In this document: positions 7,566 to 62,386 of the stretch, one piece after another | Layout: each line of letters opens with the position of its first letter | Position numbering within the stretch: position 1 is the first letter of the stretch | From: a virus | Strand: one strand, 5' to 3' | IMG/VR virus record: IMGVR_UViG_3300035212_002019 | Location: 1-64,000 of that record | Length of the DNA: 64,000 nucleotides | Notes under the pieces: generated by a model | Database searches by the model: none | Seen by the model: only the letters and a program-made list of their open reading frames with translations | What the model was told of the DNA's origin: nothing | Made by a program: the position numbers and the translations under genes

Positions 7566-8224
7566 TGAGATATCTTGAGAATTTTGTTAATTATCTAAAT
7601 GAATCCGCTGAAGACATTACTGATTTATCTAAAGAAGAATTAGATGAATTACTTATTCCTATTACAGATTTAGGCGTTCAATATACATTTTCATCACCAA
7701 GAGTTATTACTGATGGTGAATTTTCCGGATATAAATCAATGAATATAGTTTTTAGAAACTATTTTCAATTAGGTCCATCTGGTGGATATACCGACCAAAT
7801 TATTGATGAGAAATTTTGGGATTTCTTAGATGAGTTAATAGCTCTTAAAAATCGTTTAGAAAGTGCTAAAGTTTCTATCGGTACTAACTGGAGACATCAC
7901 ATAGTTGTTACTTTTATACAAAAAGCTAAAGTTGAGGGTGATTTATTTACAATACAAAAGTTGTATAATGATATGAATCTAAGAACCAACGCCTCAAAGA
8001 GTGATTTTACAAATAATATGACTAAGAATTTAGATAAAGAAAATTTAAAAATCACTGTTAGATGTAATGGTGGTTTTGGATCCTCTGATTATACAGATAG
8101 AAAGTGGAATGGTCTTTTTAGAGGTATAGATTTTTCTAATTTTAATCTAGAAAAAGAAATTACTGAAGATAGATTTGGTGGTAAATCAGCTGTTGTTACA
8201 ATTACACTTAAAAGCAAATCATAA
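7565..8224 (+). CDS. Hypothetical protein with capsid-targeting-like N-terminus
   Basis: A 219-residue protein beginning MRYLENFVNYLNESAED. The first 13 residues match the pattern of T4 capsid-targeting peptides (basic, aromatic, ending LNE), and cleavage after LNE would fit the gp21 protease rule (L/I-x-E). The remainder has no domain I know. The start overlaps the preceding stop by one base. Likely an internal head protein (inference from the N-terminus only). Confidence 0.85.
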   Translation: MRYLENFVNYLNESAEDITDLSKEELDELLIPITDLGVQYTFSSPRVITDGEFSGYKSMNIVFRNYFQLGPSGGYTDQIIDEKFWDFLDELIALKNRLESAKVSIGTNWRHHIVVTFIQKAKVEGDLFTIQKLYNDMNLRTNASKSDFTNNMTKNLDKENLKITVRCNGGFGSSDYTDRKWNGLFRGIDFSNFNLEKEITEDRFGGKSAVVTITLKSKS

Positions 8225-8258: not shown

Positions 8259-9752
8259 ATGTCTCATATATTATTAAAGAAAGTACAAGATAACTTGATA
8301 TCTGCTCCAGCTTCAAACTACGTTAAATTTTTCAGCAACGATAGTGATGGTGGTCTTTTGTATTATATGAATAGTTCAGGTGTTGCTACACCTATTGGTT
8401 CTTATAATCCAATTATAGATACTACATATTCAAATTTGTATTCTTTATATAGTTCTGATGGTTTTGCTACTGGTTCTTATTATTATATAAATGACTTTCA
8501 AACTATTTATGAGCAACCTGATTTTTATTTTGATGATAAACCTAAAACAGTTTTAAGTCTTACATCCAGTACATCTTATCCAATTGTTGTTTTAGCTACT
8601 TCAAAAAATACCTTAGCAGTTGATGCTTATCAACCTGATTATCCAAAAGATAAAATTAAATATGATTTTACTTGGAACGAAACAGAGTTTGGTAATCCGG
8701 CTAAAGGTAGAATCACTGAAAGAATTGATGTTGATGGTAATAGAACAGACTATGATCATAGAACTATAAAATTCAAAAGATATCAAAACTATGAAAGAGA
8801 TTTACAACTGAATGGTTTCATCAATAATTGGGATTGTATAAGTGGAACGGTTAGTGGTACTGCTACGACTTTTATGTCGGAGCTTTCTATTGGAGATATT
8901 ATAATTTTAGATTCACATAGTGTTTGGGGTGGTGATAAAAGTTATACTATTGGTTTAAAAGTTAAAACTAAAGTTAATGATACTACAATTACTGTAGAAG
9001 TTGATAGTTTATATACTGGTGGTGTTCCTTCTACTGTCTTATTAAATAATGGTTCTCAAATAGCACCAACGAATTATACATTTGGTGTACCAACAACACC
9101 TCTTTTGACTTTCCACTCAACAATTCCTACCGGTGATTTTACTAGTTATAAAGAAGTTTATTTTGGTCAATTTGATGATAATGATTTTGATGATCTTTAT
9201 ACGTTTCAAGTAGGTGGTACTAGTGTGAATAATTATATAGGAAATTATTCTCAAAAGTATTTAAGTGGTTCTTATAATAATACTTTGATATTATCAAATA
9301 ATGTTTTTACTAATCCTTATTCTAGTTATAATAAATTGGAGGGCGCTTGCTATAATAATCATTTTGAACAACCTGCTAAAAACAATATAATATATGCTGG
9401 TAGTGATTTCTTTAATGGTAATAATTTTAATAATAATATAATAAATGGTCCTTTTAATAATAATATAATAAATTGTTCTTTTAATAATAATATAATAGGT
9501 AATATGCTTTATAATTCATTTTATGGTGAATTTTATCATAATTTTACTGATATGAGTAGTATTTTTCGAAATAACTCTATAAAATGTGAAGTTAGTAATT
9601 TAAATTTAATGGTAGGATATTTTACCGGTGGTTTACCTACACATATTTATGGAACGTATAGTTGTGATATAATTTTAACTTCGGGATTGGATGTTAAATT
9701 ATCTTATTATAACGGATCTAATGCTTTGACTGTTGTTGATATTACCGCTTAA
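8259..9752 (+). CDS. Fibre-like virion protein with Asn-rich beta-helix
   Basis: A 497-residue protein. The N-terminus (SNYVKFFSNDSDGGLLYYMNSSGVATPIG, here abbreviated to its recognisable parts FFSNDSDGGLLYYM and SSGVATPIG) is of the type seen at the start of phage fibre and neck-appendage proteins. Residues about 330-430 contain stacked NNxIINGPFNNNIIN-like repeats, consistent with a parallel beta-helix with Asn ladders. No enzymatic motif is seen. It overlaps the convergent gene on the other strand by 4 bases. Probable accessory fibre or decoration protein. Confidence 0.85.
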   Translation: MSHILLKKVQDNLISAPASNYVKFFSNDSDGGLLYYMNSSGVATPIGSYNPIIDTTYSNLYSLYSSDGFATGSYYYINDFQTIYEQPDFYFDDKPKTVLSLTSSTSYPIVVLATSKNTLAVDAYQPDYPKDKIKYDFTWNETEFGNPAKGRITERIDVDGNRTDYDHRTIKFKRYQNYERDLQLNGFINNWDCISGTVSGTATTFMSELSIGDIIILDSHSVWGGDKSYTIGLKVKTKVNDTTITVEVDSLYTGGVPSTVLLNNGSQIAPTNYTFGVPTTPLLTFHSTIPTGDFTSYKEVYFGQFDDNDFDDLYTFQVGGTSVNNYIGNYSQKYLSGSYNNTLILSNNVFTNPYSSYNKLEGACYNNHFEQPAKNNIIYAGSDFFNGNNFNNNIINGPFNNNIINCSFNNNIIGNMLYNSFYGEFYHNFTDMSSIFRNNSIKCEVSNLNLMVGYFTGGLPTHIYGTYSCDIILTSGLDVKLSYYNGSNALTVVDITA

Positions 9753-10024
9753 TCATTCATAAAAGAAATAACTAAGTCTAAGTTTTCTCTATTAAATCCA
9801 TCTGGTAAAGGTTTTCCACCTTGTTTTAGATAATCACTATATATATTATTGTATTCGTCTATTGTATAGAATCCATTATCAATTTCTGATAGAATCACAT
9901 TTGTATCGTGAAAAGAAACAGTTTTATTTTGTAACCTTGTTTCACCATATGCTGGTCCAATTGGACCAACTAATTCAGTACCTGATACTTCTTCGTTAAT
10001 AAACTGTTTGAATGATTTAATCAT
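9749..10024 (-). CDS. Small protein with capsid-targeting-like N-terminus
   Basis: A 91-residue protein beginning MIKSFKQFINEEVSG, the closest match in this window to the T4 internal-protein leader (MKTYQEFIAEA). Cleavage after INE (residue 11) is predicted under the L/I-x-E rule. The body (GPIGPAYGETRLQ, SFHDTNVILSEID) has no recognised domain. Its ATG overlaps the end of the upstream gene by 8 bases. Confidence 0.8.
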   Translation of the reverse strand: MIKSFKQFINEEVSGTELVGPIGPAYGETRLQNKTVSFHDTNVILSEIDNGFYTIDEYNNIYSDYLKQGGKPLPDGFNRENLDLVISFMND

Positions 10025-22148: not shown

Positions 22149-22547
22149 ATGAAACACATTAAAAAATTTAATGAAACCAAAAAAGAAGACAAGATTGAAG
22201 ACCAAGAAGTTCTTTTTAATGCTGAAGTTTTAGTAGATAAAGATGAGAAACCATCATTTACGACCGATGTCGAAGACCAAGAAAAAGTTAAAAAAGAATT
22301 TGATAAACTAAGAAAAGTTAAAAGCTTTGAAAACTTTACAATTGAAGTTGAGGTTGAGGTTAAACCTGAAGGTGAAGAAGAATCTGAAGAAGAATATAAC
22401 ACTCCACATTCTTTTGAACCTGAGCAAGAAGAAGAGGGTTGTGGTTGTCAAGACTGTGATTGTGGTTCTGAAGAAGAATCAAATCCAGAAACTGATGTTA
22501 AAGTTATGAATATAGCTGACTTTATGAACTCAATTGCTGGTCAATAA
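22149..22547 (+). CDS. Acidic protein with capsid-targeting-like N-terminus and Cys cluster
   Basis: A 132-residue, strongly acidic protein. It begins MKHIKKFNETKKED, one of the family of short basic-aromatic leaders in this phage. Residues about 75-115 are Glu-rich and enclose CGCQDCDCG, five cysteines in nine residues, a possible metal-binding patch. No known domain. First of four closely spaced plus-strand genes with similar leaders. Confidence 0.8.
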   Translation: MKHIKKFNETKKEDKIEDQEVLFNAEVLVDKDEKPSFTTDVEDQEKVKKEFDKLRKVKSFENFTIEVEVEVKPEGEEESEEEYNTPHSFEPEQEEEGCGCQDCDCGSEEESNPETDVKVMNIADFMNSIAGQ

Positions 22548-31997: not shown

Positions 31998-32558
31998 TCA
32001 CTTCTCTTTTGAGATTTTCTTTATATTATCCATCATATTCTTCTCTACATCGAGCATTTTTTTATTTAATGATGATTGGGCATCAGATATTTCTTTGGTT
32101 AACGATGCTATAGAAGCAGCATTTGTTGATATTCTATTAGTTATATCAGTTATTTTGCCAGTAACGGCTTGCTTTGTAGAGTCATCCTTAGATAATTTTA
32201 ATTCTTCACTAAAATCATCTTTTTTAACCTTATCATTCGCAATATCTTTTTGAATATTATTAACTTTTCTTGTTAAACTAGCAATGTGTAGATACTCAAC
32301 TAAGAAAGGATTTCTATCCTGACCTGGTAAGGCATCTATTTTACCAACAATCGATTCTATTTTCTTTTGTAAGTCAGCATCTATTTTGATTGTTAGATAT
32401 GCGGTGTCTATTAGAGGCTTCTTTGTTTTATATTCAGTAAGTTGATTTTTAAGAGTTGTCAACTTTTCTTTAGCCATTTTAATATCTGGTTGGTCTGTTA
32501 TATTAACATCAAATTCAGCTTCTTCTAAAAAGATTCTATATGATTTTAGGTTCCTCAT
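31998..32558 (-). CDS. Coiled-coil protein with capsid-targeting-like N-terminus
   Basis: A 186-residue protein starting MRNLKSYRIFLEEAEFD, with a predicted gp21-type cleavage after LEE (residue 13). The rest is almost entirely helical with heptad-like Leu/Ile spacing (LTTLKNQLTEYK, KKIESIVGKIDAL, ISTNAASIASLTKEI). Its start overlaps the stop of the 945-residue upstream protein by one base. Probable internal head protein or core component. Confidence 0.8.
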   Translation of the reverse strand: MRNLKSYRIFLEEAEFDVNITDQPDIKMAKEKLTTLKNQLTEYKTKKPLIDTAYLTIKIDADLQKKIESIVGKIDALPGQDRNPFLVEYLHIASLTRKVNNIQKDIANDKVKKDDFSEELKLSKDDSTKQAVTGKITDITNRISTNAASIASLTKEISDAQSSLNKKMLDVEKNMMDNIKKISKEK

Positions 32559-35395
32559 TACTTTTTCTCCATTTTGGTTTTGGATATATTATCAGCACCC
32601 GAAACGGTCTTAAATCCTCCAATTGTTGAAATTCTATCTCCTATTTTTTTATTTAATACAAATCTTGTTTTATCTGATGATGTTTCAACATCTTTTGTAT
32701 TCTCATATAAAGTATAACAGTTTACAACACTAATACTTTCTGGTTTATCTGATAAAGTTGATTTAGTATTTGCGTTATTTGATTTTCCATCAAACTTAGT
32801 TAAGTATGTTATCTCATAGTCTCCTGTTAACTTAAACTTACCATCTTTTCCTATTAGATTATCAATTTTCTTTTTAGTAGCTTTTATTTTATAATCTAAA
32901 TTTGATTCCTTGCCATCTTCATCTATTTGTTCTTTTCCTTGTTTATTCAAGAATATTTCTCTTGGAAGATCTCCTTTTGTTAATTTATTAGGTATTCCTG
33001 ATTCTGTGATATATTTTTGAAAGAAGTAAAAAGATCTTGAATATGTTATATAAGCAATGTCACCAACAACTTCTTGTATAAAGAAGTAAACCACACTTTT
33101 ATTAGTTGATACAGCAAAGAATGATTTAGCTAAATCATCATTTGATTCAAATTTAATAGGATCTTTTGTGAAAAGTAGATTTTTGGCTCCAGGTATAGAA
33201 TCAGCATTTTTTGAATTGCCTTCTTGCTCTTCAGATCCTCCAAAGTTTGTTTTATTTGGATCATCCTCTTTATAACCAAAGTACTGATCTAAAAATTTAG
33301 CTTGTAACCCTTTAGCATCTTTACCAGTTTTGTAAAGTTCATCACCATCAAGCATATCCGTCATGAATTTACGAAGATTTGCTCCTGCTTTATCTATTAA
33401 GTCATTACCTACTTTTAATTTAGTACCAATGTTAAAAATTGGTTGATATTTTTTATCTCTTTGTATATCTAATACAGTATCTTCCCATTGATTAAAAATG
33501 GCGTTATTTCTATATGGTCCACCAGACTTGCCAGCAGTACTTGGATCACCTGATCCAAAAGTAGTATATTCCATAAACACACTATTTGATACTCTACCTC
33601 CACTTCTTCCAGATGGAATTACTTGTGTTGTGTGTATTTTATAAGCTCTATTGAAACACTTGACAATATCTAAAACAGGATCAATTCCATTTATTACAAT
33701 AGAATCTTTTCTTTCTTTTTCAATTTTATCAAATTTTTCTTTCATTTTAATAACTTCTGTTTTTTCCATTACAAAAGCCTTAATATCTATCTTTTTACTC
33801 CAATAGTCTTTAATTTTTTGAGATGTAGTCATTGTATCAGGAGCACCAACTTTTGATTCTTCCTCATTTTCTTCAGTCTCTTCACCTTCTTCAGCTTCTT
33901 TTAATAATGATATAAATTTATCATATTTAAATAAAGATGATTCTTTTTTAACTTCTTCTTTAGGTTTCTCTTCAGTTTTAACTTCAGCTTTTTTCTCAGT
34001 AGGTTTTATTGTCATTGTAGATTTAATTCCTTCTACAAATGCTTGTAAGCCTTTACCTGTTTCTCCTAGACCACCATATAATCCTTCTTTGTCAAATTGT
34101 AAAGCAGTTTTAGCAAATCTTGCTATTTTCTCAGCTACAACAATTTTTTTGTTTTTATCTGAGATTATTTCCATACTTTCTTTATACAAAGGAGTGCTAG
34201 AAGCATTTAATGTTTCTTTTTTATCACCAACTAAATATCTGTTGATTTCTGTAAAAAGAGATTTAATAACTTCTTTGTTTTTAGAATCTAGTGATTTTGA
34301 TGTTATATCATTTAAGAATTTAACATCTACACCAACGCCTTTATCTTTTGGTGATTCCAATACTTCAATAGCTTTCTTTAACTTAGCAAAAGCTTGTGTT
34401 AGATGGTCTTCACCTCCTTTAATATTTGCTCTATCTGGACTTGCGCCATCACCAATAGCTTCTAATAAAGTATAACTTTCCATTACAAGAACTAAACCAG
34501 CAGGCATTGTTTGATTATCTTTTGGATATTTTGCCAATTGAGGGTTTTTAGCTCTAATATCAGCCGATGCTAATTTTTTTGAATTGGCTTTAGTATTCTT
34601 TTGAATCTTTTCAACAGTATCTCCGGCTACAGTAGTGTATGTTACTTTAGTACTTTGTCTAGTTTCTTTATTACTTAATGTCGTTGTTGCTAACTTAACC
34701 TCTTTGTAATGTGATAATATAGAAGTTAATGATTTTAATGTTTTGATCATAGTAGGATACATGGATTCTGAAGAATTTGAGCCCTCTCCTTCTTTATCAC
34801 CCTCTCCTTCTTTATCACCTTCTCCTTCACCTTCTCCTTCACCCTCTCCTTCTTCTTTATCAGCATCTGCTTCGGATTTTCCACCTTCATCATCCTTAAA
34901 TTGTTCTAAGAATTTTAAAAATTCTTCTAACTGACTTATTAAACTATCTTTATTTTCAAAGTCTTCAAAGTTTTTAATATCTGAAATTGCTGCTTTTGTT
35001 AAATTTCTAATATCACCTACGCTAGCTTCTTCCTCTACAGCTTTTTGTAAACTATCAAGAAAAGAAAAAACAGTAAGTCTTTTGAATTCTTTTTTATCCT
35101 CTTCTGATAATTCAGCTTCAGCTGAACCACCTAAGAGATCATCAAACGCATATCTTAGTCTTTTAGCTACGCCTTTTATTCTAACAAGATTAGCACCAAT
35201 CTTTGCTTTTCTAATAGTAGAGTTTATTAATCTACCTAGTAAAGAGTCACCCCAAGGTATATCATTAGCAAATGGTCCGCTATTTTCAACGTCTTCATTT
35301 ATTTTAACCAAATCTTTATCTTCTAAAGACTTATATTCATCTATTTTGTTTATGCTTCTTTTAAGGAACTCATCTCTATTACTAAGATACTTCAT
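32558..35395 (-). CDS. Large acidic internal-type protein with LysM-like domain
   Basis: A 945-residue protein. It begins MKYLSNRDEFLKRSI, a variant of the leader family. Residues about 165-200 are a GEGEGEGDKEGEG acidic low-complexity run. About 260-310 reads TYTTVAGDTVEKIQKNTKANSK...NPQLAKYPKDNQTMPAGLVLVM (in pieces: VAGDTVEKIQ, NPQLAKYP, MPAGLVLVM), the shape of a LysM domain, a peptidoglycan-binding fold. The C-terminal half is alpha/beta with no recognised enzyme motif. The stop overlaps the next start by one base. Possibly a large injected or core protein; position next to the sheath gene would also allow a tail role. Confidence 0.75.
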   Translation of the reverse strand: MKYLSNRDEFLKRSINKIDEYKSLEDKDLVKINEDVENSGPFANDIPWGDSLLGRLINSTIRKAKIGANLVRIKGVAKRLRYAFDDLLGGSAEAELSEEDKKEFKRLTVFSFLDSLQKAVEEEASVGDIRNLTKAAISDIKNFEDFENKDSLISQLEEFLKFLEQFKDDEGGKSEADADKEEGEGEGEGEGEGDKEGEGDKEGEGSNSSESMYPTMIKTLKSLTSILSHYKEVKLATTTLSNKETRQSTKVTYTTVAGDTVEKIQKNTKANSKKLASADIRAKNPQLAKYPKDNQTMPAGLVLVMESYTLLEAIGDGASPDRANIKGGEDHLTQAFAKLKKAIEVLESPKDKGVGVDVKFLNDITSKSLDSKNKEVIKSLFTEINRYLVGDKKETLNASSTPLYKESMEIISDKNKKIVVAEKIARFAKTALQFDKEGLYGGLGETGKGLQAFVEGIKSTMTIKPTEKKAEVKTEEKPKEEVKKESSLFKYDKFISLLKEAEEGEETEENEEESKVGAPDTMTTSQKIKDYWSKKIDIKAFVMEKTEVIKMKEKFDKIEKERKDSIVINGIDPVLDIVKCFNRAYKIHTTQVIPSGRSGGRVSNSVFMEYTTFGSGDPSTAGKSGGPYRNNAIFNQWEDTVLDIQRDKKYQPIFNIGTKLKVGNDLIDKAGANLRKFMTDMLDGDELYKTGKDAKGLQAKFLDQYFGYKEDDPNKTNFGGSEEQEGNSKNADSIPGAKNLLFTKDPIKFESNDDLAKSFFAVSTNKSVVYFFIQEVVGDIAYITYSRSFYFFQKYITESGIPNKLTKGDLPREIFLNKQGKEQIDEDGKESNLDYKIKATKKKIDNLIGKDGKFKLTGDYEITYLTKFDGKSNNANTKSTLSDKPESISVVNCYTLYENTKDVETSSDKTRFVLNKKIGDRISTIGGFKTVSGADNISKTKMEKK

Positions 35396-43065: not shown

Positions 43066-43728
43066 ATGAAGCATATCAGAACATATGAAAACTATCGTAT
43101 TAAAAAGAACAGAGAAGAAATCATTAAAGAATCGGTTCTTCAAGTAAACGATATTTACAAAGTAAAGACAATGATTGATATTCCTCAATCTTTAATCAAT
43201 GCTTATGTGAAAAAAGTAAAAGACACTACAGGTAAAAACCTACGCACGTTCTTTGGTGATGTTGATATTGCTGAAGAAATTGTAAAGTTTATTAATATGG
43301 ATAACTTAGATGTTGAGAAAATTCCTGGTGGTGCTTTAATGGGTGGTGGTCAATCACAAACTCAAACACAACCTCAGGCTCAACCTCAAGTTCAAGTAGA
43401 GGCTCAACCTCAAGCTCAAACTCAAGAAGCTCCTCAGGCACAAGCTCAACCAGCTCAAACTCAAGAAGCTCCTCAAGCACAAGCTCAAGAAGCTCCAGCA
43501 CAAGGTGAATTTGAAGAACCTCAAGCACAAGCTCAACCTGCTCAAGGTCAGGCTCAAGAAGCTCCAGCACAAGGAGAAGAAGCTCAACCAGCACAAGGAC
43601 AAGCTCAACCAGCACAAGGACAAGCTCAACCAGCACAAGGACAAGCTCAACCAGCACAAGGTGAAGAAGAAGAAAAAGAAGAAGGTGAAGAAGAAAAAGA
43701 AGAAGGTGAAGAAGAATTACCTCTTTAA
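43066..43728 (+). CDS. Capsid-targeting-type protein with Gln/Ala/Pro repeats and acidic tail
   Basis: A 220-residue protein beginning MKHIRTYENYRIKK. Residues 1-95 are folded-looking (VYIKVKTMIDIPQSLINAYV region). About 100-198 is a low-complexity Q/A/P/E domain with heptapeptide QAQPAQG units, and the last 20 residues are Glu/Lys/Gly. The leader suggests an internal head protein; the Q/A/P arm is probably disordered. The DNA repeat at 43582 makes length variation likely. A strong terminator follows. Confidence 0.85.
   Translation: MKHIRTYENYRIKKNREEIIKESVLQVNDIYKVKTMIDIPQSLINAYVKKVKDTTGKNLRTFFGDVDIAEEIVKFINMDNLDVEKIPGGALMGGGQSQTQTQPQAQPQVQVEAQPQAQTQEAPQAQAQPAQTQEAPQAQAQEAPAQGEFEEPQAQAQPAQGQAQEAPAQGEEAQPAQGQAQPAQGQAQPAQGQAQPAQGEEEEKEEGEEEKEEGEEELPL
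43582..43661 (+). repeat. 21-bp tandem repeat (about 3.9 copies) coding QAQPAQG
   Basis: Unit gctcaaccagcacaaggac plus aa, at 43582, 43603, 43624 and a partial at 43645. Copies are nearly identical, inside the Q/A/P domain of the preceding gene. Confidence 0.9.
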
Positions 43729-49330: not shown

Positions 49331-50425
49331 TTATGCTTCTGTTGAAACCTCAAATTCAGAATAAACTGTTTGTAACATTCTAAGTGATACTTGGTAAGGA
49401 TCACAGTTAGAAGCTGGTCTTCTATCTTCAAAGTAGCCTTTTCCTTCAACAATTGCTTGTGCTGGAATTCTGATAGATGTGTCTCTTGTAGAGAAGCCGT
49501 AACTGAAATCATTGATACTTGATGTTTCGTGAGCACCAGTTAATCTTTGGTCGTTATGTAATCCGTAAACCGCAATGTGTTCTCTTTGATACTTTTCTAA
49601 TTTAGACATAGTTTCTTTAATGATGTCTAATCCGCCTTCTTCTCTCATTTCTTTAGTAGAGAAGTTAACATGACAACCTGTTCCGTTCCAGTCGCCTTTT
49701 AGTGGTTTAGGATGTAAAGAAACTTTAACATTATATTTTTCAGCAACTCTTTGTAACAAATAACGAGAAACCCATAATTGGTCAGAACCTTCTAAAGCAG
49801 TAACTGGTCCAATTTGATATTCCCATTGTCCTAAAAGAACTTCAGCATTAATACCGGAAATATCTAAACCAATTTCCATACACATATTCATATGTTCTTC
49901 AACAATGTCTCTACCAACTACATTATCAGATCCGATACCACAGTAGTAGTCACCTTGAGGTCTTGGTGTTGAATTTGGATCCAAAGTAAATCCTAATGGA
50001 ATACCTTCACCAATGCCAAATGGAATCATTGGTTTGTGTGTAAGAGTGTATTCTTGTTCCCAGCCAAACCAAGGAAGTTCTAATTTATCACCTGAATTGA
50101 TGCCCAATTCATTAACTTTTTCAGCTAATGTTCTTCTGTTGTTTGTTTCGTGTTGTGTTCCGTCTGGGTTAAGAACTTCACAGAAAACTAATTTGTTTAA
50201 TCCTTTTCTAAATGGATCGTATGTTACAAATACGGGTTTTAATAAACAGTCTGTGTTTTTACCTTTACCTGATTGTGCTTGTAACGTTGAACTTCCGTCA
50301 AATGACCATATTGAATAGTCAGAAGGATTCATAGAATTAATTTCTGAGGCGATTTTAGTTTTACTTCTAAGTTGTTGAGGGTTTGAACCATCAAGCCAAA
50401 TGTACTCTAGTTTGATATTACTCAT
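49331..50425 (-). CDS. glnII: Type II (eukaryotic-type) glutamine synthetase
   Basis: A 364-residue GSII enzyme, near full length for the family. Signature motifs: SIWSFDGSST, the FGWEQEYTL metal site, PRPQGDYYCGIGSDNVVGRD, INAEVLLGQWEYQIGP, HPKPLKGDWNGTGCHVNFST, HEDQRLTG-type YGLHNDQRLTGAHET, and RDTSIRIP. All expected catalytic residues appear present. It condenses ammonia and glutamate using ATP. This type is usual in eukaryotes and some bacteria, including Bacteroidota. It is an auxiliary metabolic gene here, on its own between terminators. Alternate role: control of glutamine level for nucleotide synthesis. Confidence 0.95.
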   Translation of the reverse strand: MSNIKLEYIWLDGSNPQQLRSKTKIASEINSMNPSDYSIWSFDGSSTLQAQSGKGKNTDCLLKPVFVTYDPFRKGLNKLVFCEVLNPDGTQHETNNRRTLAEKVNELGINSGDKLELPWFGWEQEYTLTHKPMIPFGIGEGIPLGFTLDPNSTPRPQGDYYCGIGSDNVVGRDIVEEHMNMCMEIGLDISGINAEVLLGQWEYQIGPVTALEGSDQLWVSRYLLQRVAEKYNVKVSLHPKPLKGDWNGTGCHVNFSTKEMREEGGLDIIKETMSKLEKYQREHIAVYGLHNDQRLTGAHETSSINDFSYGFSTRDTSIRIPAQAIVEGKGYFEDRRPASNCDPYQVSLRMLQTVYSEFEVSTEA

Positions 50426-52446: not shown

Positions 52447-52923
52447 ATGAGACATTTAAGAAAATTTGAAGAACTTGATTATTCTACATATATGAGTGCT
52501 GCTGATAAAATGGCTGGATATGGTCAAGTTAAGAAAGCAGAAGAAGTTAAATCACATGCTAAAAGCATGGCTATGATGCTTATCAAAAATATGGAGTTTG
52601 ATATTTTAGTTGGTAATGTTAAAGAATTTCCAATGGCAAAATTTCATAGTGCTAGAATATTTAAATCAGGAACAGCTTGGACTCTTCAAGTTATGTTCGA
52701 ATCTAATGGTGGTTATACACATAGTGTGATGTCCAAGGCTACACCTGAAGGTGAAATTAGTTGGCAAGAAGGTAATAAATTTATGAATAGAAAATCTACA
52801 ATTAAGTTTAATCAACTTATTGAACAACTTTGTCTTTTTCAACCAGATTTTGTTGGATACTTAAAAGAGTATAGCTTAAATTCTGGTGATCTTAAATTAA
52901 TACAAAGAACTTATTATTTATAA
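52447..52923 (+). CDS. Hypothetical protein with capsid-targeting-like N-terminus
   Basis: A 158-residue protein starting MRHLRKFEELDYS. Helical first third (ADKMAGYGQVKKAEEVKSHAK) and a beta-rich remainder (SARIFKSGTAWTLQVMFESNGG). No known domain. It is followed by an intrinsic terminator and then the portal gene. Likely an internal head protein. Confidence 0.8.
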   Translation: MRHLRKFEELDYSTYMSAADKMAGYGQVKKAEEVKSHAKSMAMMLIKNMEFDILVGNVKEFPMAKFHSARIFKSGTAWTLQVMFESNGGYTHSVMSKATPEGEISWQEGNKFMNRKSTIKFNQLIEQLCLFQPDFVGYLKEYSLNSGDLKLIQRTYYL

Positions 52924-53012: not shown

Positions 53013-54725
53013 ATGGCATCATATAATCAATTTAACGCAGGTTCAGGTCAAACAAATTTCGCCTACACCAACAGTGCTGTTGAGAATAAAGGACTTTTTA
53101 ATAGAATTTTAAGAGGTTTATCATCTTATGGTATGAACTATGATGATATGATTGTTAGAAACCAAGTTGGTATTGGTATTAACGAAGATCCATATGCGGC
53201 TAGAGGTAACTCAATGTATGACTTCTTCTCTCAAAGAGCCGTAGCTTCTGTCTTAAATAGAAAATCAATTCCTTACTTAGATAAAGCTTATGGTGATAAA
53301 AGAAGAATTTTAAGAGAATATTCAATTAAAGATGAAATTAGAGACTTTATTAGTTCATTAGCTGATGAAAGTATTGTTTATAATGATGAAAGAGATTTCT
53401 GTTCTCCTAAGCCTTTATCAAATGATTATTCACAAGAGATTAAAGATAAGTATCAAGAATATTTTGAAAAGATTTATAATAAGTTTGGATTCTCTGATAG
53501 TATTACTGCCTGGAATATGATGAAAGACTTTTTAATTGATGGTTATTTAGCATTAGAAATTATCTATGATGATAAGAAAAAGAATATTATTGGTTTTAAC
53601 AGATTAAGACCAGATACTTTAGTTCCAGCATTTGAGCCATCTATTGGTCACTTATGGATTCAGTTTCCTGAAGATCCTCAATTGAGAAGAATCTTCTTAG
53701 ATTCTCAGTTAGTTTATATTTCTTATTCATCTCAAAATGATTATTCAGAAACATCTTATGTAGAAGGTTTAATTAAACCATATAACCAATTAAAGATTCT
53801 TGAGCAAACAAGAGTAATGTTTAACATTATTAATGCTACAGTTTATCAAAAGTTTACTATTCCTATTAAAGGTTTATCAAGACAAAGAGCTGAAGAACAA
53901 ATTGGTCAATTAATCAATGATTATTCAGAAGAAGTTGAATGGGATGATTCATTAGGTACATTAACTATCAATGGGGCTAAACACTTACCTTATAATAAAC
54001 AAATTTGGTTCCCTGAAGGAGATGCTGGTACACCAGCTATGGAATTAGTTTCACCTGAAGGACATAACTTAAATGAGTCGGATATGTTGACTTGGTTCTA
54101 CAATGCCCTAAAAAGAGCTTCTAAGATTCCTTTCCAACGTTTTGATAAAGAAAATGGTGGTGGTAACTTAATCAATGACTCGGCTGATATGACGAGAGAT
54201 GAGATTAAATTTTACAACTTTATTAATAGATTAAGAGCTAACTTCAAAGAACTTATTGTTAAGCCTTTGAAACTACAAATGTTAATTGAGTTTCCTGAGT
54301 TGAAAGAAGATGAGATTCTTATGAATCAAATTGATATTAACTTTAACTCAAATCAAGTATTTGAAGAATGGAAGAAATTAAATAACTTGGCTAAGAAAGC
54401 AGAAATATTTGGTACTTTAGTTGGAATTATGAATGGTGAAAAACCTTACTTCCACGTTGAGTATTTAATTGATAATGTATTTAAATTGACACCAGAAGAA
54501 AAAGCTGAAAATCAAAAATACTGGGCTAAAGATGCTCTCGGTGTTGCTGGTGGTGGTGCGGCCGCTGGTGCTGAAGGTGGTGCTCCTGCTGAAGGTGCTC
54601 CTGCTGAAGGTGGTGAGGCTCCAGCTGAGGGTGGTGAAGCCGCTCCTGAGGCACAAGCCGCTCCTGAGGCACAAGCCGCTCCTGAAACTCCTCCTGCTGA
54701 AGGTGGTGGTGAATTTGAATTCTAA
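53013..54725 (+). CDS. 20: Portal protein (gp20)
   Basis: A 570-residue T4-type portal. Typical parts: ILREYSIKDEIRDFISSLADESI near residue 110 (as YSIKDEIRDF), WNMMKDFLIDGYLALEIIYD, IIGFNRLRPDTLVPAF, LIKPYNQLKILEQTRVMFNI, IPFQRFDKENGGGN and SADMTRDEIKFYNFINRLR. It forms the dodecamer at one capsid vertex for packaging and tail joining. The final 50 residues are a Gly/Ala/Glu/Pro low-complexity tail (AEGGAPAEGAPAEGGE) not known from T4. Closed by a terminator. Confidence 0.96.
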   Translation: MASYNQFNAGSGQTNFAYTNSAVENKGLFNRILRGLSSYGMNYDDMIVRNQVGIGINEDPYAARGNSMYDFFSQRAVASVLNRKSIPYLDKAYGDKRRILREYSIKDEIRDFISSLADESIVYNDERDFCSPKPLSNDYSQEIKDKYQEYFEKIYNKFGFSDSITAWNMMKDFLIDGYLALEIIYDDKKKNIIGFNRLRPDTLVPAFEPSIGHLWIQFPEDPQLRRIFLDSQLVYISYSSQNDYSETSYVEGLIKPYNQLKILEQTRVMFNIINATVYQKFTIPIKGLSRQRAEEQIGQLINDYSEEVEWDDSLGTLTINGAKHLPYNKQIWFPEGDAGTPAMELVSPEGHNLNESDMLTWFYNALKRASKIPFQRFDKENGGGNLINDSADMTRDEIKFYNFINRLRANFKELIVKPLKLQMLIEFPELKEDEILMNQIDINFNSNQVFEEWKKLNNLAKKAEIFGTLVGIMNGEKPYFHVEYLIDNVFKLTPEEKAENQKYWAKDALGVAGGGAAAGAEGGAPAEGAPAEGGEAPAEGGEAAPEAQAAPEAQAAPETPPAEGGGEFEF

Positions 54726-55219: not shown

Positions 55220-57100
55220 TTACAATATTGTAAAATCTATCTGTTTTCTTTCTAAGTCTACTGATTTAACTACAACTTTAAGAGAATCTCCTAATCTGAT
55301 TTTTTCACCATTTTCGCTTGTTATTGTATAGTTAGCTGTATCAGCTGACCATTTTCCTTCAAGTGATTGGTATCTAACCATTCCTTCACATTTACTTTCA
55401 ATCAATTCAACATACATGCCCCAATCAGTTACACCTGAAACGATACCATCAAATACTTTACCAATCTTATCTAAGAGATATTCAGCTTGTTTGTATTTAA
55501 TTGAATCTCTTTGAGCTTTAGCAGCTACTAATTCTCTAGCAGAACACCATTTAGCTTGTTCTTCAATCTTACCAGGATTACCTTGAGTTTTCTTATCTAA
55601 GAAATCAAGTAATATTCTGTGTGTGATTAAATCTGGATATCTACGAATCGGTGAAGTAAAGTGAGAGTAGTGAGTAAATCCTAAACCATAGTGACCAATG
55701 TTCTTAATTGTGTAAGTTGCTTTAGACATACATCTAGTTACTAAAGTTTCAATCATATTTTCTTCAGGAGTATCTTTAATTTCTTTTAATAAAGAATTAA
55801 GTGATTTTTTAATTTCAGTTGAATCATCATATATCTCTATATCATATCCAAAAGTTTTACAAACACCAACTAAAGCATTCAACTTCTCCATATTTGGAGT
55901 ATCGTGAACTCTATAAACGTTTGCCCAACTAGCTTCTGATAAAGTTTTAGCAACTGACTTGTTAGCCAATAACATAAATTCTTCAATTAACTTGTTAGAT
56001 TCTTTTTGTTCTTTGAAATAAACACCAATTGGTTTCTTATTATCTTCGGCTAATTTGAATTTAACTTCAATGCCTCCCATTTCAATAGAACCTTCTTTGA
56101 TTCTTTTCTTTCTAATCTTTCTAGCTAAAGTATCAAGTAATCTAATTTCGGTTGAATAATCACCTTCACTACCTTCAATTATTTCTTGGGCATCTTCATA
56201 AGCAAATCTTCTATCAGAGTGAATAACGGTTTTACCTTGCCAAGTATTTAAGATGTTACCATCACCATCTAAAGTAAAGATAACAGAAAAAGCTAATCTA
56301 TCTTCATGTGGTTTAAGTGAACATATACCATTACTTAAACGTTCTGGTAGCATTGGAACACATCTATCAACTAAATATACTGATGTGGCTCTTTTGAAAG
56401 CCTCATCGTCTAATTTAGTTCCTGGTTTAACATAGTGACCTACGTCAGCAATGTGAACTCCTATTTCAATTTTATTATCATTAATTATATTAACTGATAA
56501 AGCATCATCAAAATCTTTAGCATCAACTGGGTCAATAGTTAAAGTAGTAACACCTCTCATATCTTTACGAGAAGAAATTTCCTTTTCAGTAATAACTTCA
56601 GGTACTAACATTGATTCGTTAATAACTTCTTGAGGAAATTCAACAGGTAGTCCATATTCGAACATAATTGAATTCATCTCAGCATTGTTATCACCGGAAT
56701 CTCCTAAAACTTTAATTATTTTTCCTTGTGGTGATTTTGTATCTTCCCACTTTATTAACTCGATTACAACTTTTTGGTCGTGTTCGGCTTTTAATCCACC
56801 TTTAATATAAAAGTCTACTGGAATTTTATTACTATCAGGAACTACGAATATAGTTTTCTTCCCAATTTGTACTTTTCCAACAAACTCTGTTTTAAATCTT
56901 GAAATAACTTCAATAACTTTTCCTTCTAACTTTTTTTCAGCTTTGAATATCTGAACTTTTACTTTATCTAAATGTAATGAGTTAGTCGTGTTTTTCTTGT
57001 AAATGAAGATTTCTTTATCTTCTACTAATAAGGACGCGTTACCACTTGTTGAGAATTCAATCTGTCCTTCGTAAACATCCCCTTCTTTTAATTCTATCAT
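55220..57100 (-). CDS. rnr: RNase R/II family 3'-5' exoribonuclease
   Basis: A 626-residue RNB-family enzyme. N-terminal cold-shock-like domains are short; catalytic RNB domain has RGVTTLTIDPVDAKDFDDALSV (residues about 183-203, with the four Asp that bind Mg), HIADVGHYVKPGTKLD, RATSVYLVDRCVPMLPERLS and CSLKPHEDRLAFSV; GLGFTHYSHFTSPIRRYPDLITHR (as HYSHFTSPIRRYPDL) and a C-terminal S1 domain FDGIVSGVTDWGMYVEL. It degrades structured RNA processively. Smaller than E. coli RNase R (813). No obvious upstream AATATATA element. Confidence 0.95.
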   Translation of the reverse strand: MIELKEGDVYEGQIEFSTSGNASLLVEDKEIFIYKKNTTNSLHLDKVKVQIFKAEKKLEGKVIEVISRFKTEFVGKVQIGKKTIFVVPDSNKIPVDFYIKGGLKAEHDQKVVIELIKWEDTKSPQGKIIKVLGDSGDNNAEMNSIMFEYGLPVEFPQEVINESMLVPEVITEKEISSRKDMRGVTTLTIDPVDAKDFDDALSVNIINDNKIEIGVHIADVGHYVKPGTKLDDEAFKRATSVYLVDRCVPMLPERLSNGICSLKPHEDRLAFSVIFTLDGDGNILNTWQGKTVIHSDRRFAYEDAQEIIEGSEGDYSTEIRLLDTLARKIRKKRIKEGSIEMGGIEVKFKLAEDNKKPIGVYFKEQKESNKLIEEFMLLANKSVAKTLSEASWANVYRVHDTPNMEKLNALVGVCKTFGYDIEIYDDSTEIKKSLNSLLKEIKDTPEENMIETLVTRCMSKATYTIKNIGHYGLGFTHYSHFTSPIRRYPDLITHRILLDFLDKKTQGNPGKIEEQAKWCSARELVAAKAQRDSIKYKQAEYLLDKIGKVFDGIVSGVTDWGMYVELIESKCEGMVRYQSLEGKWSADTANYTITSENGEKIRLGDSLKVVVKSVDLERKQIDFTIL

Positions 57101-57680: not shown

Positions 57681-59804
57681 ATGAAACCAGTATTAATTAT
57701 AGAAAATTCACAAAACTCTCTTATTAGAGAGAACAATGGTTCAACTAAGAAGGATTACATTCTAGGTGGTACGTTCACAGAGTTCGGTGTTAAAAACCGT
57801 AATGAAAGAATTTATACTGCTGATAAATTTCTTCCAGCTTTAAATGAATTAAATGAAAGAATGAGCAGTTTAGGCGTTGTTTACGGTGAGTTTGATCACC
57901 CAGATGTTTTTGACACATCTCTTTCAAGAGCATCACACATTATCACAAAAGCTAATTATGTAAAAGAATCAAATTTAGTTAATGGTGAAATTAGATTACT
58001 AAACACTTATTGGGGTAAAGAAGCAAAGGCATTAGTTGATGACGGATGTCCTGTTTTCGTTTCTTCAAGAGCCGCTGGTATCACTGAATCAGATGGTACT
58101 GTTTCATTGAAAAAATTATTTACATATGATATCGTTGCTGATCCAGGTTTTGCTTCTGCTAAAATGTCGGTTAAGAATATCAACGAATCATTAGGATATA
58201 ATGAAAACTCTAACTTTAGGATATATGAAATGTCCGATGAGTCCAAAATAAATCAACTATTTGATATGAACAAAAATGAATTTGTTACAAAGCAACAATT
58301 AACTGAATATTCTCAGTATTTAGTTAAAGAACTAGCTTCTACAAAGAAAGAAGTTAAAGGTGCTCTTACTAAAGGTAATTTATCTCCAAAGAAAATGGAG
58401 CAACTTTTAGAGTACTATGAAGAGTTAAATTCTACTAATTCTCAAGTTGTTAAATATTTAGATTATTTGGCTGAAAAAGTTCAAATTATGGTTAATGAAA
58501 ACAAGTCGTTAAAGGAAACTACTGACAAACTTATTAAACATAATGACTATTTAGCTGAAAATTTAGAAAAAGCTGTTAACTACTCTGAATACTTAGCTGA
58601 AAACTTAGACAAAAATATTGAGTATTCTGAATACTTAGCTGAAAATCTTGATAAGAACATTTCTTATTCAGAATATATCGCTGAAAATCTTGATAAGAAC
58701 ATTTCTTATTCTGAATACTTAGCTGAAAACTTAGACAAAAATATTGAGTACTCTGAGTACTTAGCTGAAAATCTTGATAAGAATATTGCTTATTCAGAAT
58801 ATATCGCTGAAAACTTAGACAAAAATATTTCTTACGCAGAATATATTGCTGAGCACGTTGATAATTCAATTGCTTATTCTGAATACTTAGCTGAACACGT
58901 TGAAGGTAACATCGCTTACTCTGAATACATTGCTGAACATTTAGATGATAATATTGCTTACTCTGAATACATTGCTGAAAATCTTGATAAATCAATTAAC
59001 TACCAAGGTTTAATCGTTGAAAAATTAAATTCAAGAAAATTAAATGAATCAATGAGTGAAGAAGAAGAAGCTTTCCCATCATTACAAGCGGCAGGTTTTG
59101 AAAATACTCAAGAAGATGAGAATGAAGAAGAAGAAAATGAAGAAGAAGCATACAATGGTATTGCTTCAGCTCATGAAGAAGAAGCATATAATAAAGAAGA
59201 AGAAGATGAAGACTGTGGTCCATCTGCTACTGAAGAAGAAAATAATGATGAAGAAGCTCATGATTACAAAGTAACTGGTAACAGTGATTCTGAATTATCT
59301 GAGTCAATCAACAAATTAATAGAAGAAGCTAAAAAACGTAAAGTTTCTGAATCAACTGACTTGAATTTCTTAAAATTCTTAAACAAGTCACAAGTAGATA
59401 GTTACTACGCTTTGTCTGATGAAGACCAAGAGGCTGTTAAATTTCACATAAACGAAAGAAATTACTTCACATCTAAAGATGTGTTAAGCCTAATCGCAGA
59501 AGCGCTATCATCAAAGAATGAATCTCTTGAAGAAAGAGTAATCAGATTAATGCCTGAAAACACTAAGGCTATCTGGAGTCAAATGAATGAATCTGCTAAA
59601 AAATCTATCTTATCACAAGCTAGACTTTACCCAGCTGAAGTTTTAATGACTGAATCACAAGTTGAGCATTTCTGGTTAACTAGAAAGCTTAAAACAAACG
59701 AGTCTGTAACTAAAAAGTTAGTAGCTCATGAAAGTTTAATACAAGAAGATAAACTTTCTGATAATGACGTTACTGCGATTATGGAAAGATTCAAAAACAT
59801 TTAA
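57681..59804 (+). CDS. 21: Prohead protease fused to scaffold (gp21-gp22 fusion)
   Basis: A 707-residue fusion. Residues 1-175 are a herpesvirus-type/T4 gp21 maturation protease: YGEFDHPDV (His73) and PVFVSSRAAG (Ser128-129, Arg130) provide the catalytic triad elements. The rest is a core/scaffold: a helical part, ten 14-residue repeats (see separate entry), a Glu-rich low-complexity segment (about 455-530) and a helical C-terminal domain rich in KFLNKSQVDSYYALSDEDQ-type sequence. T4 has protease and scaffold as separate genes 21 and 22. The repeats each have an L/I-A-E site that the protease would cut, so the scaffold may destroy itself. Begins MKPVLIIENSQ with IIE and IRE sites. Confidence 0.9.
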   Translation: MKPVLIIENSQNSLIRENNGSTKKDYILGGTFTEFGVKNRNERIYTADKFLPALNELNERMSSLGVVYGEFDHPDVFDTSLSRASHIITKANYVKESNLVNGEIRLLNTYWGKEAKALVDDGCPVFVSSRAAGITESDGTVSLKKLFTYDIVADPGFASAKMSVKNINESLGYNENSNFRIYEMSDESKINQLFDMNKNEFVTKQQLTEYSQYLVKELASTKKEVKGALTKGNLSPKKMEQLLEYYEELNSTNSQVVKYLDYLAEKVQIMVNENKSLKETTDKLIKHNDYLAENLEKAVNYSEYLAENLDKNIEYSEYLAENLDKNISYSEYIAENLDKNISYSEYLAENLDKNIEYSEYLAENLDKNIAYSEYIAENLDKNISYAEYIAEHVDNSIAYSEYLAEHVEGNIAYSEYIAEHLDDNIAYSEYIAENLDKSINYQGLIVEKLNSRKLNESMSEEEEAFPSLQAAGFENTQEDENEEEENEEEAYNGIASAHEEEAYNKEEEDEDCGPSATEEENNDEEAHDYKVTGNSDSELSESINKLIEEAKKRKVSESTDLNFLKFLNKSQVDSYYALSDEDQEAVKFHINERNYFTSKDVLSLIAEALSSKNESLEERVIRLMPENTKAIWSQMNESAKKSILSQARLYPAEVLMTESQVEHFWLTRKLKTNESVTKKLVAHESLIQEDKLSDNDVTAIMERFKNI
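58578..58997 (+). repeat. Ten 42-bp repeats coding [x]YSEY(L/I)AENLDKNI
   Basis: Ten consecutive in-frame units of exactly 42 bases (14 residues, two heptads). Units 1-6 are nearly identical (YSEYLAENLDKNI); units 7-10 diverge (AEHVDNSI, AEHVEGNI, AEHLDDNI, AENLDKSI). Every unit has Tyr-(Leu/Ile)-Ala-Glu. Confidence 0.95.
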
Positions 59805-59885: not shown

Positions 59886-61601
59886 ATGTCACACATTAGA
59901 ATAGACAAATCAAAAGCAGTTAAGAAATGGGCTCCAGTTTTGGAAAACATGGGTGTAACTGAAGATAGAGTAGAATGGATGTCAGAAATGGCTGAGTATC
60001 ACTCAATCAATGAGAATGCGTATGTAAACGCATCAAACGTAGCAGGTATGGGAGCTGTATTGAATCCAGTTGTTGGTTCATTAGCTGGTAATCCTGGTAA
60101 CTACTCAAATGCTTACGGTAACGTAGCAGGTTCTGGAGACGTAGGTCAAAACTTACTTCCAGTAGCTATGAAAATTGCTGCTCAAACAATCGGTTTAGAC
60201 TTAGTAGCTGTTAAACCAACTCCAGGTCCAAAAATCGATTTATTATACATCGATTTCCAATACGATGATGTTAATAACTTAACAGATGGTTATGAAAAGC
60301 CACAAGTTTTCAAATTATATGCTAGTAACATTACTGACATCAATGCTGTTATTGCTGCTGACGTTGCTGGTACAGATAGAAATGGTTATACTTTAGCTCC
60401 GTTACAACAAACAACTGGTGGATTACAAGGTGGTAGATTATTCTACGGTATCACTGCTTCATCAGCATTTGTAAGTAACACTTTACCAGCATCTAAAACA
60501 AATGTAGTTGAATTCTTAGGTTTCTCTCGTATCGATGGTTACCCAATGTTCAGAGTATTCAGACAAGCAAATACATCAGGTAACATTTCTGTTCCTCATA
60601 CATTTGTTGCTGCTGACAACACATTTGCTGCTACAGGTAGTATGCTTTCTCAAATTTTAGGTTTAGCTGGTTTAGTTCCTAACGCAGGAACAAAAGAAGT
60701 TCAATTGATCTCTGCTTTAGAAGATCATATCCCAGGATTCACATCTAACTGGACTGCTGCTTCAGGTGGTGCTTTAGGTAACTATCCAATGGATCGTGCT
60801 TCTGATGATAACAGTTATGCTGGTGTTATCGGACCAAAAATCTCTTCTAAAACTGTAGCAGTTGGTACTATTGAAGTATCTTCAGCTCTTAGAAGAACTG
60901 AAATCGAAGATATCAAAGCTAACACAGGTATGGATATCGTTCAAAAAATGGAGTCTATCCTTGTTAACGAATTGTCTCAAACAATTTCTAAACAAATCGT
61001 TGCTAAAATCTTCGAAATGGGTGCTCTTAATGCTGTTAATGCTCCTGCTGCTCCAGCTGGTTCTGCTAACAGTGGAGGTACTATCTTCGATTTGAACACT
61101 GCTTATGCTGCTACTACTTATGTTGGTGGTGAAACTACTCACGCTGTTCAACGTAAGTTAATCACTAAGATTGCTCACGCTTCTAACTACATTGCTACTG
61201 AAGGTCGTGTAGGTCCTGCTCAATACCTTATCACAAACGGAGGTCTTGCTGCTGCTTTACAAGATATCGCTGGTTACACAATTAACCCAGTTAAATCTAA
61301 ATTAAACGGACAAGGTCAATTATACCCTGTAGGTTCAATCGGAGACATCTCTATCTATGTAGATCCATATATGAGATATAACGATAACAGAATCGTATTA
61401 GGTCGTAAGAACAACCCTGACCAACCAGGTATCATTTTCGTACCTTACTTAATGGCTCAGTCTATCTCAGTTATCTCTGAAGCTACATTCGCTCCAAGAA
61501 TGTTGTTACGTTCAAGATATGCTGTAACTGAAGTTGGTTGGTTCCCACAAAAACAATACATGACTATTACAGTTACTGACGCTGCTCAGTTATTAAACTA
61601 A
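59886..61601 (+). CDS. 23: Major capsid protein (gp23)
   Basis: A 571-residue T4 gp23-type capsid protein. The N-terminal propeptide (about 43 residues, helical) ends in SINE, a gp21-type I-x-E cleavage site; mature protein would begin NAYVNASNV. Family features: LLPVAMKIAAQTIGLDLVAVKP, IDLLYIDFQYDD, SALRRTEIEDIKANTGMDI, ASNYIATEGRVGPAQYLIT, and the C-terminal RYAVTEVGWFPQKQYMTITV. Codon use is enriched in C-ending codons compared with neighbours, consistent with high expression. Hexamer building block of the head. Confidence 0.97.
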   Translation: MSHIRIDKSKAVKKWAPVLENMGVTEDRVEWMSEMAEYHSINENAYVNASNVAGMGAVLNPVVGSLAGNPGNYSNAYGNVAGSGDVGQNLLPVAMKIAAQTIGLDLVAVKPTPGPKIDLLYIDFQYDDVNNLTDGYEKPQVFKLYASNITDINAVIAADVAGTDRNGYTLAPLQQTTGGLQGGRLFYGITASSAFVSNTLPASKTNVVEFLGFSRIDGYPMFRVFRQANTSGNISVPHTFVAADNTFAATGSMLSQILGLAGLVPNAGTKEVQLISALEDHIPGFTSNWTAASGGALGNYPMDRASDDNSYAGVIGPKISSKTVAVGTIEVSSALRRTEIEDIKANTGMDIVQKMESILVNELSQTISKQIVAKIFEMGALNAVNAPAAPAGSANSGGTIFDLNTAYAATTYVGGETTHAVQRKLITKIAHASNYIATEGRVGPAQYLITNGGLAAALQDIAGYTINPVKSKLNGQGQLYPVGSIGDISIYVDPYMRYNDNRIVLGRKNNPDQPGIIFVPYLMAQSISVISEATFAPRMLLRSRYAVTEVGWFPQKQYMTITVTDAAQLLN

Positions 61602-61621
61602 TAGTAATATTGGAAATATTG

Positions 61622-61650
61622 AAAAAAGACCCTTTATGGGTCTTTTTTCT
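61622..61650 (+). terminator. Intrinsic terminator after major capsid gene
   Basis: AAAAAAGACCC-TTTAT-GGGTCTTTTTT, 20 bases after the capsid stop codon. Confidence 0.9.
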
Positions 61651-61667
61651 TTTTAAACAATTTCTAA

Positions 61668-61677
61668 TTAATATATA
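61668..61677 (+). promoter_or_regulatory. Candidate late promoter element, 4 nt before ATG
   Basis: TTAATATATA, CAGT, ATG at 61682. Same spacer as at 6099. Confidence 0.6.
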
Positions 61678-61681
61678 CAGT

Positions 61682-62386
61682 ATGAAATATTTACTAATTG
61701 AAAATAGAGGTGATGATTCTGAAGATCGTGAAGATAAAGATATCATTATTAAGTATTTTGATGACTTAAATGATGTTTATTCATATATCTGTCATGAATT
61801 AATATATGAGGATTTAGATATAGAAGATTTTAACAATGATCCTTATAGTGGGGTAGAAGAAAGAATTGAAGAACATGGTTCTAGTTATTATATTTTTGAA
61901 GGTGAAAACGAGATAATGTCATTAAAAATAGGTAGTATAAAGGATGGTGATTGGAATAAATTCACTAATTTTTGTTTAGGTGGTATAAAAGAAAGTAGAA
62001 TAATGAATTATAAATCATTTAATGAGTCTAAAAAAGATAAATTCCCTAATATTCAAAAATTAGAAATAGAAGGATTTGTTGTTTATGTTGGTAAAGATGC
62101 TAAATCTAATGACCATTTGACATTTAATGTTGCTGATAAAGAAGATATTTGGTTCCATGTTAAAGGTGTTCCTGGTAGTCACGTTGTTATTCGTGTAAGA
62201 GAAAATTTACCTACAGAAACTGTTATTAAATCTGCTGCTCAATTAGCTAAAAAGAATAGTAAAGGATCTAAAGAATCTAGTGTAACTGTTGTTTATTGTC
62301 AAAGAAGATTTGTAAAGAAAGAGTCTGGTATGAATGATGGTCAAGTTAAAGTGGATTATACAAATTCATATCAAATTGTAGTTTAA
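61682..62386 (+). CDS. Two-part protein with C-terminal NFACT-R domain and two targeting-like leaders
   Basis: The start at 61682 is preferred since the frame upstream runs through the terminator. The 234-residue product has an acidic N-terminal part (MKYLLIENRGDDSED..., 107 residues) of unknown fold. At residue 108 a new leader-like segment MNYKSFNESKKDK begins (ATG at 62003), followed by an NFACT-R domain: VYVGKDAKSNDHLTF, DIWFHVKGVPGSHVVIR, SAAQLAKKNSKGS, and VVYCQRRFVKK. NFACT-R (DUF814) is the RNA-binding domain of RqcH/NEMF, ribosome quality control factors. The second part may also be made separately from 62003. Looks like two former genes fused. Confidence 0.8.
   Translation: MKYLLIENRGDDSEDREDKDIIIKYFDDLNDVYSYICHELIYEDLDIEDFNNDPYSGVEERIEEHGSSYYIFEGENEIMSLKIGSIKDGDWNKFTNFCLGGIKESRIMNYKSFNESKKDKFPNIQKLEIEGFVVYVGKDAKSNDHLTFNVADKEDIWFHVKGVPGSHVVIRVRENLPTETVIKSAAQLAKKNSKGSKESSVTVVYCQRRFVKKESGMNDGQVKVDYTNSYQIVV

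Follow-up and report, generated by a model that had tools for sequence, protein, structure and literature searches.

Why should a phage build its prohead protease into the same chain as its scaffold, and why should that scaffold present a possible site for the protease every 14 residues? The question is raised by an intact open reading frame (ORF) of 707 amino acids (57681–59804, plus strand) within the window, by which is meant the whole 64,000-nucleotide stretch analyzed here, part of an 82,062-base virus record. The ORF lies between the gene for a gp20-type portal protein (53013–54725, plus; PF07230, E = 2.6e-57) and that for a gp23-type major capsid protein, or MCP (59886–61601, plus; PF07068, E = 4.8e-28), the order being portal, fusion, MCP, with minus-strand genes in the gap between portal and fusion. 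One gene in this gap (55220–57100, minus) resembles by eye an RNase R/RNase II-type exonuclease, and the ORF at 49331–50425 (minus) resembles, also by eye, glutamine synthetase. Adjoining the capsid gene is an ORF with an NFACT-R RNA-binding domain (61610–62386; PF05670, E = 6e-17), and the 634- and 642-kb phages have similar ORFs after their capsid genes. Low-complexity tandem repeats at 57–912, 34782–34852, and 43350–43716 are probably coding (Gly-Ser rich and others).

The nearest annotated records are LR745206 (634 kb), LR756502 (642 kb), LR756501 (735 kb), LR756504 (636 kb), and LR756500 (462 kb). The four largest complete genomes in a survey of huge phages were of 634, 636, 642, and 735 kb, and the Mahaphage clade comprises all of the largest genomes of that survey as well as Lak, with Bacteroidetes as predicted hosts (PMC7162821). 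A Shine-Dalgarno motif was found at the start of only one of 41 ORFs of the window phage, a near-absence that is expected given such hosts. The best explanation, which as a whole we regard as rather probable, is that the source is a Mahaphage-type huge phage and that the fusion ORF encodes its prohead core protein.

The chain begins with a gp21-type prohead protease domain (residues 1–169; 57681–58187, plus), in agreement with the preliminary description of this locus, where such a protease and the core were said to be parts of one polypeptide. The domain matches PHROG 207 (E = 1.6e-30), and its AlphaFold2 model (pLDDT mostly 65–87 over these residues) matches T4 gp21 (5jbl) in Foldseek, with E about 5e-8 and TM 0.65–0.71 on the target. 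H73 and S128 align with the catalytic H85 and S140 of T4 gp21 and are invariant in 33 relatives. The curated cut-off of Pfam S77 (PF03420) was missed (20.6 vs 27 bits), but that cut-off is a matter of scoring and not of biology, and the fold, the residues, and PHROG 207 confirm the domain as a divergent member of the gp21-type (S77) family. Two sites in the domain may be targets of the protease itself (an arrow marks the predicted cut). LIIE8↓N, near the N-terminus (E8 at 57702–57704, plus), is the predicted site of self-cleavage; the form [LIVM]xE is present in 33 of 33 relatives, and the counterpart in T4 gp21 is LIE-9 (PMC9026906). At the domain end, I167-N168-E169↓S170 (58179–58187, plus) is conserved as [ILV]NE, likewise in 33 of 33 relatives, and Lak has RVNE↓S at the equivalent position. 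Judging from sequence, INE169↓S is a good candidate for the cut that would free the protease from the scaffold. Conserved Glu sites at 56, 59, and 136 lie within the folded domain and are probably structural.

The repeats occupy residues 301–440 (58581–59000, plus), where ten strict units of 14 residues follow the pattern YSEY(L/I)AE↓(N/H)xxxxIx (consensus YSEY(L/I)AE↓NLDKNIx), each with L/I-x-E. They are the same ten repeats that were earlier put at 58578–58997, read in another phase; Tandem Repeats Finder reports a 42-bp period with 10.4 copies at 58544–58981. The array is preceded directly by a degenerate but good first unit, HNDYLAENLEKAVN (58539–58580, plus), and followed by a degenerate last unit, YQGLIVEKLNSRKL (59001–59042, plus). 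An early degenerate unit, YLDYLAEKVQIMVN (58455–58496, plus), is in register but not adjacent. Since [LI]-x-E is found in 12 of the 12 contiguous units, the idea that each repeat carries a gp21-type site is borne out, and the figure of about 1.6 kDa for a ladder unit agrees with calculation: a peptide cut at successive sites would be NLDKNISYSEYLAE, with a computed mass of 1659 Da, and its variants would range from about 1.61 to 1.70 kDa. Mean nucleotide identity among the units of the window protein is 68%, and variation affects most positions other than Glu7, which is retained; the array is therefore not an artefact of recent duplication.

The coiled coil proposed for the repeats is supported only in part. 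AlphaFold2 predicts a near-continuous helix over residues 236–450, but at a pLDDT of only about 45–60, and the solved structures that match the repeats, for the most part coiled coils of artificial design and helical bundles, are uninformative. The alignment given to AlphaFold2 left out three rows from the annotated collection. More broadly, long helices are predicted at low confidence over residues of about 204–450, including a linker from protease to repeats (residues 204–258; 58290–58454, plus). After the repeats comes an acidic, variable segment, predicted to be disordered (residues 455–535; 59043–59285, plus; pLDDT 25–36), whose amino acid conservation is low (0.54–0.61), and then a C-terminal helical scaffold domain (residues 536–707; 59286–59801, plus), with pLDDT 75–80 over most of 560–667.

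Between protease and scaffold, codons 178–189 (58212–58247, plus) show unusually low synonymous variation among 63 relatives, as do codons 548–556 and 616–632 of the same gene. The junction string AACTTTAGGATATATGA is preserved even in the 735-kb phage and could be an internal promoter, a translation signal, or an RNA signal; the window contains no second good copy of the string, such as a repeated promoter might have. M196 is invariant in relatives and M184 is not conserved. An internal start at M184, with AGGA 8 nt upstream as a Shine-Dalgarno sequence, was considered and rejected, because the ATG is replaced by TTA or CTA in 13 of the 63 relatives and because the phage in general does not use Shine-Dalgarno sequences. 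Cleavage at the junction at RIYE183↓M was also rejected as a general feature, since relatives of the 735-kb type have RIYD.

How faithfully is the putative cleavage site kept? In a set of 784 units drawn from 66 distinct proteins, 780 have Glu7, 726 have Tyr4, and 718 have Tyr1 (65 have His there instead), and at position 5 only I, L, or V occurs. In relatives of the 735-kb phage, 94% of the units retain [LIVM]xE. The expectation that the repeats of close relatives would keep the site thus held for these proteins and held less well in a sister clade of the 462-kb type (clade B, about 35% identical to the window protein), where [LIVM]xE occurs in about 71% of units. With about 29% of its units lacking the site, clade B does not depend on a cut in each one. 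The rule of the T4 protease is L/I-x-E (PMC9026906), and the MCP of the window phage has a predicted propeptide site of this form, I41-N42-E43↓N44 (60006–60014, plus). The full N-termini of relative MCPs read [ILM]-x-E↓N, except for one with E↓S, and the context resembles that of T4 gp23, FLTE65↓AEIGGDHGYNATN. The inferred MCP maturation site of the window phage obeys the same rule as the repeat unit.

The first half of the unit has a further likeness, to a capsid-targeting sequence of T4. IPII and IPIII of T4 begin with MKTYQEFIAE↓A (read from NC_000866), and in amber-suppression genetics, targeting was traced to residues 4 and 7 and processing to residues 8 and 10 (PMC9026906). These residues map to unit positions 1, 4, 5, and 7, where the unit has, at the same spacing, the same kinds of residue: aromatic, aromatic, aliphatic, and Glu. 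Both sequences thus have the architecture aromatic-x-x-aromatic-aliphatic-x-Glu↓, and by reproducing the targeting sequence the unit suggests a part in docking and not in dismantling alone. The T4 sequence is single and N-terminal, whereas in the huge phages the motif is tandem and internal in the scaffold and N-terminal on dozens of other ORFs. The repeats, being internal, do not have the location of the T4 sequence; only the separate tagged ORFs do.

Those ORFs came from a scan for a tag, defined as Ar-x-x-Ar-[LIVM]-x-E starting within a few residues of the initiator Met, that covered all of the 735-, 642-, and 462-kb genomes together with the 636-kb genome up to 320 kb. With ORFs called mechanically and paralogues not independent, the 735-kb genome has 57 tagged ORFs out of 1014, the 642-kb genome 27 out of 967, the 462-kb genome 23 out of 677, and the scanned half of the 636-kb genome 19 out of 511; slightly larger numbers (60, 36, 31) are obtained from the same genomes when the search span is widened or the residue class is relaxed a little. 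Among 420 arrangements of the residue classes, the tag ranks 1st, 8th, 2nd, and 1st in the 735-, 642-, 462-, and 636-kb genomes, respectively. In the 735-kb phage the other arrangements average 4.5 ORFs, against 57 for the tag, and in the 642-kb phage several of those that outrank it reflect a second type of tag. Ar-x-x-Ar precedes [LIVM]xE in 9–15% of N-terminal sites but in 2% of internal ones, an enrichment of 5–8 times (Fisher p = 7e-27, 9e-11, 7e-9, and 1e-9 in the four genomes). The bodies behind the tags are mostly unrelated, falling by BLASTP into 39, 28, 15, and 18 families in the four genomes, and where a tagged ORF has a homologue in the 642-kb genome, the homologue too is tagged in 9 of 17 cases, against a background of 3%. 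No tag was found among 128 SPO1 ORFs or 50 E. coli ORFs, and four matches were found in T4, IPII and IPIII among them. In the window itself 3 of 64 ORFs are tagged (p = 0.05), with N-termini mrylenFVNYLNE↓ (7565–8221, plus), miksFKQFINE↓ (9752–10024, minus), and mrnlksYRIFLEE↓A (32001–32558, minus).

The resemblance between tag and unit is one of architecture rather than sequence, as follows from searching each phage with a matrix derived from the units of its own scaffold: the 735-kb phage alone gave clear N-terminal matches (20, against 2 internal), and the signal was weak in two others and absent in the fourth (2 vs 2). Full scaffold units do occur on two other proteins. One is a small basic ORF of LR745206 (460483–460635, minus), with MNYEDYIAE and three to four scaffold-like units, which resembles a T4 internal protein. 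The other is a 207-aa ORF of LR756501 (620138–620275, plus) that has GVSGSAG repeats and, close to its C-terminal end, three scaffold units; near it lies an ORF that looks by eye like a single-strand DNA-binding protein. Two adjoining ORFs at W03 715658–716573 have the tag-like N-termini YSDYVGE and YDEYLRE and hydrophobic C-terminal segments that resemble membrane anchors. No Pfam match at E 1e-3 was obtained for 16 of the 20 tagged proteins scanned. A match to polyphosphate kinase 2 (E = 1.1e-76) makes one tagged ORF of the 735-kb phage (L174:12222–13433; MISNYDNFMNE↓S) a candidate packaged enzyme, and the homologue of this ORF in the 642-kb phage is likewise tagged. As for the second tag, M-K-H-L-(K/R)-x-(Y/F)-N-E-S, it is very uniform, is found on about 38 ORFs of LR756502 (642 kb) and in the window at 22149–22544 and 52447–52920, and ends in a possible NE↓S cut site.

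Perhaps the array is nothing more than a structural helical repeat, with Glu7 serving for packing or salt bridges and no cut in each unit. Long helices are indeed predicted, and clade B keeps the 14-residue period even where the site has been lost. A merely structural or generic-coil role is argued against, however, by the contrast between Glu7 and its heptad equivalent, position 14: once near-duplicates are removed, Glu7 has the lowest entropy of the 14 positions (0.40 bits) and position 14 the highest (2.47). The site in the unit obeys the same [ILMV]xE rule as that in the MCP, and clade B has mostly lost Ala6 (present in 25% of units) while retaining Glu7 (71%), which fits an L/I-x-E motif with a free middle residue. 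We therefore consider a purely structural repeat quite improbable. The self-dismantling rod of the preliminary description, if that were the array's sole role and its likeness to the targeting sequence just reflected a common protease substrate, would accommodate all of the evidence from site conservation. T4 gp22 is cut into many fragments (PMC9026906), and T4-like gp22 proteins carry 10–24 scattered [LI]xE sites, both of which are in keeping with such a rod. Yet neither the conservation of Y1 and Y4, which lie outside the cleavage motif, nor the enrichment of aromatic residues before the N-terminal sites of unrelated ORFs would be explained, and a rod without docking seems to us unlikely, if worth keeping in mind.

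It had also been supposed that the number of repeats might follow capsid size, in which case the array could be a molecular ruler. Within a clade the number is fairly constant (11–13 units in most), as a ruler might require, but it does not track genome size: the 634-, 636-, 642-, and 735-kb genomes have 12, 11, 12, and 13 units, one close relative has 16, and Lak-B8, at 552 kb, has the fusion without any 14-residue repeats. A ruler can accordingly be given very little credence.

We lean instead toward a scaffold that is a tandem array of a motif for core docking and cleavage, of which cargo proteins carry single copies. From domain identity, gene order, motif positions, conservation, and tag enrichment, all of them observed, we infer the cleavages, the docking of like to like, and the exit of peptides. 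According to the model, the first half of the unit, Y-S-E-Y-L/I-A-E↓, would be at once a protease site and a surface for core assembly and docking. Chains would assemble into the core by means of their helical array and C-terminal domain, the MCP shell would form around it, and internal proteins with one similar motif at their N-termini would dock into the core, assembly and docking both making use of the aromatic-aliphatic face. The protease would then release itself at LIIE8↓N and INE169↓S, cut each unit after L/I-A-E to give peptides of about 1.65 kDa, cut the MCP propeptide at INE43↓N, and trim the tags from the cargo; finally the peptides would leave and the head would expand. Taken to its end, the hypothesis of a code shared by scaffold and cargo would have one motif as assembly unit, cargo address, and cleavage site, with the 19–57 tagged proteins per genome scanned packaged and injected along with the DNA. 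This fuller version is possible, but we hold it only tentatively.

Much in this scheme has parallels. The protease is like T4 gp21 (S77, 5jbl) in fold, His and Ser residues, gene position, N-terminal LIE-type site, and L/I-x-E rule, but T4 gp21 is a separate protein, while the window protease is fused to a scaffold and its sequence falls under the Pfam S77 cut-off. The scaffold part shares with T4 gp22 a place between protease and MCP, a helical character, and many L/I-x-E sites, which are scattered in gp22 and form a regular array here, one site per 14 residues. Homology of the repeat and C-terminal part to gp22 was not found by hhalign (probability 0.4%), and for this reason the scaffold, which appears to work like gp22, is not assigned to the gp22 family. 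The gp22 proteins of T4 and HTVC008M have one tag-like segment, which is suggestive only. In E. coli phage 121Q, as in T4, the gp21 and gp22 genes are separate. Lak comes closest, with protease (E = 3.6e-34) and a weakly similar C-terminal domain (hhalign probability 66%, E = 5.6e-5, against that of the window protein) in one chain but without the 14-residue repeats. Farther afield, protease and scaffold are joined in herpesvirus UL26 (with UL26.5) and in lambda C (with Nu3), so that such fusions are already known, and in both systems the scaffold alone (UL26.5, Nu3) is also made from an internal start. We know of no protease-scaffold fusion in phiKZ or SPN3US. These phages, like the window phage, employ a gp21-like protease in head maturation and have a large load of internal proteins and multi-site propeptides (PMC5694885, PMC9026906); they differ in their cleavage rule (SxE/AxE) and in that a counterpart of gp22 is not confirmed.

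Three things are new to us: that the array is regular, that it resembles a targeting sequence, and that so many ORFs are tagged. The literature searched contained no report of them, which is not proof that none exists. There has been little progress on the structure of T4-type cores or on how head size is determined (PMC3012670), and with one motif regularly repeated, the core becomes accessible to biochemical and structural study. The conserved INE↓S after the protease suggests a route by which a fused protease may be released. If the tags are targeting sequences, they provide a sequence-based list of proteins, most without a recognizable family, that may be packaged in the heads of the largest known phages and injected from them, and as candidate handles they might serve to bring proteins into very large capsids.
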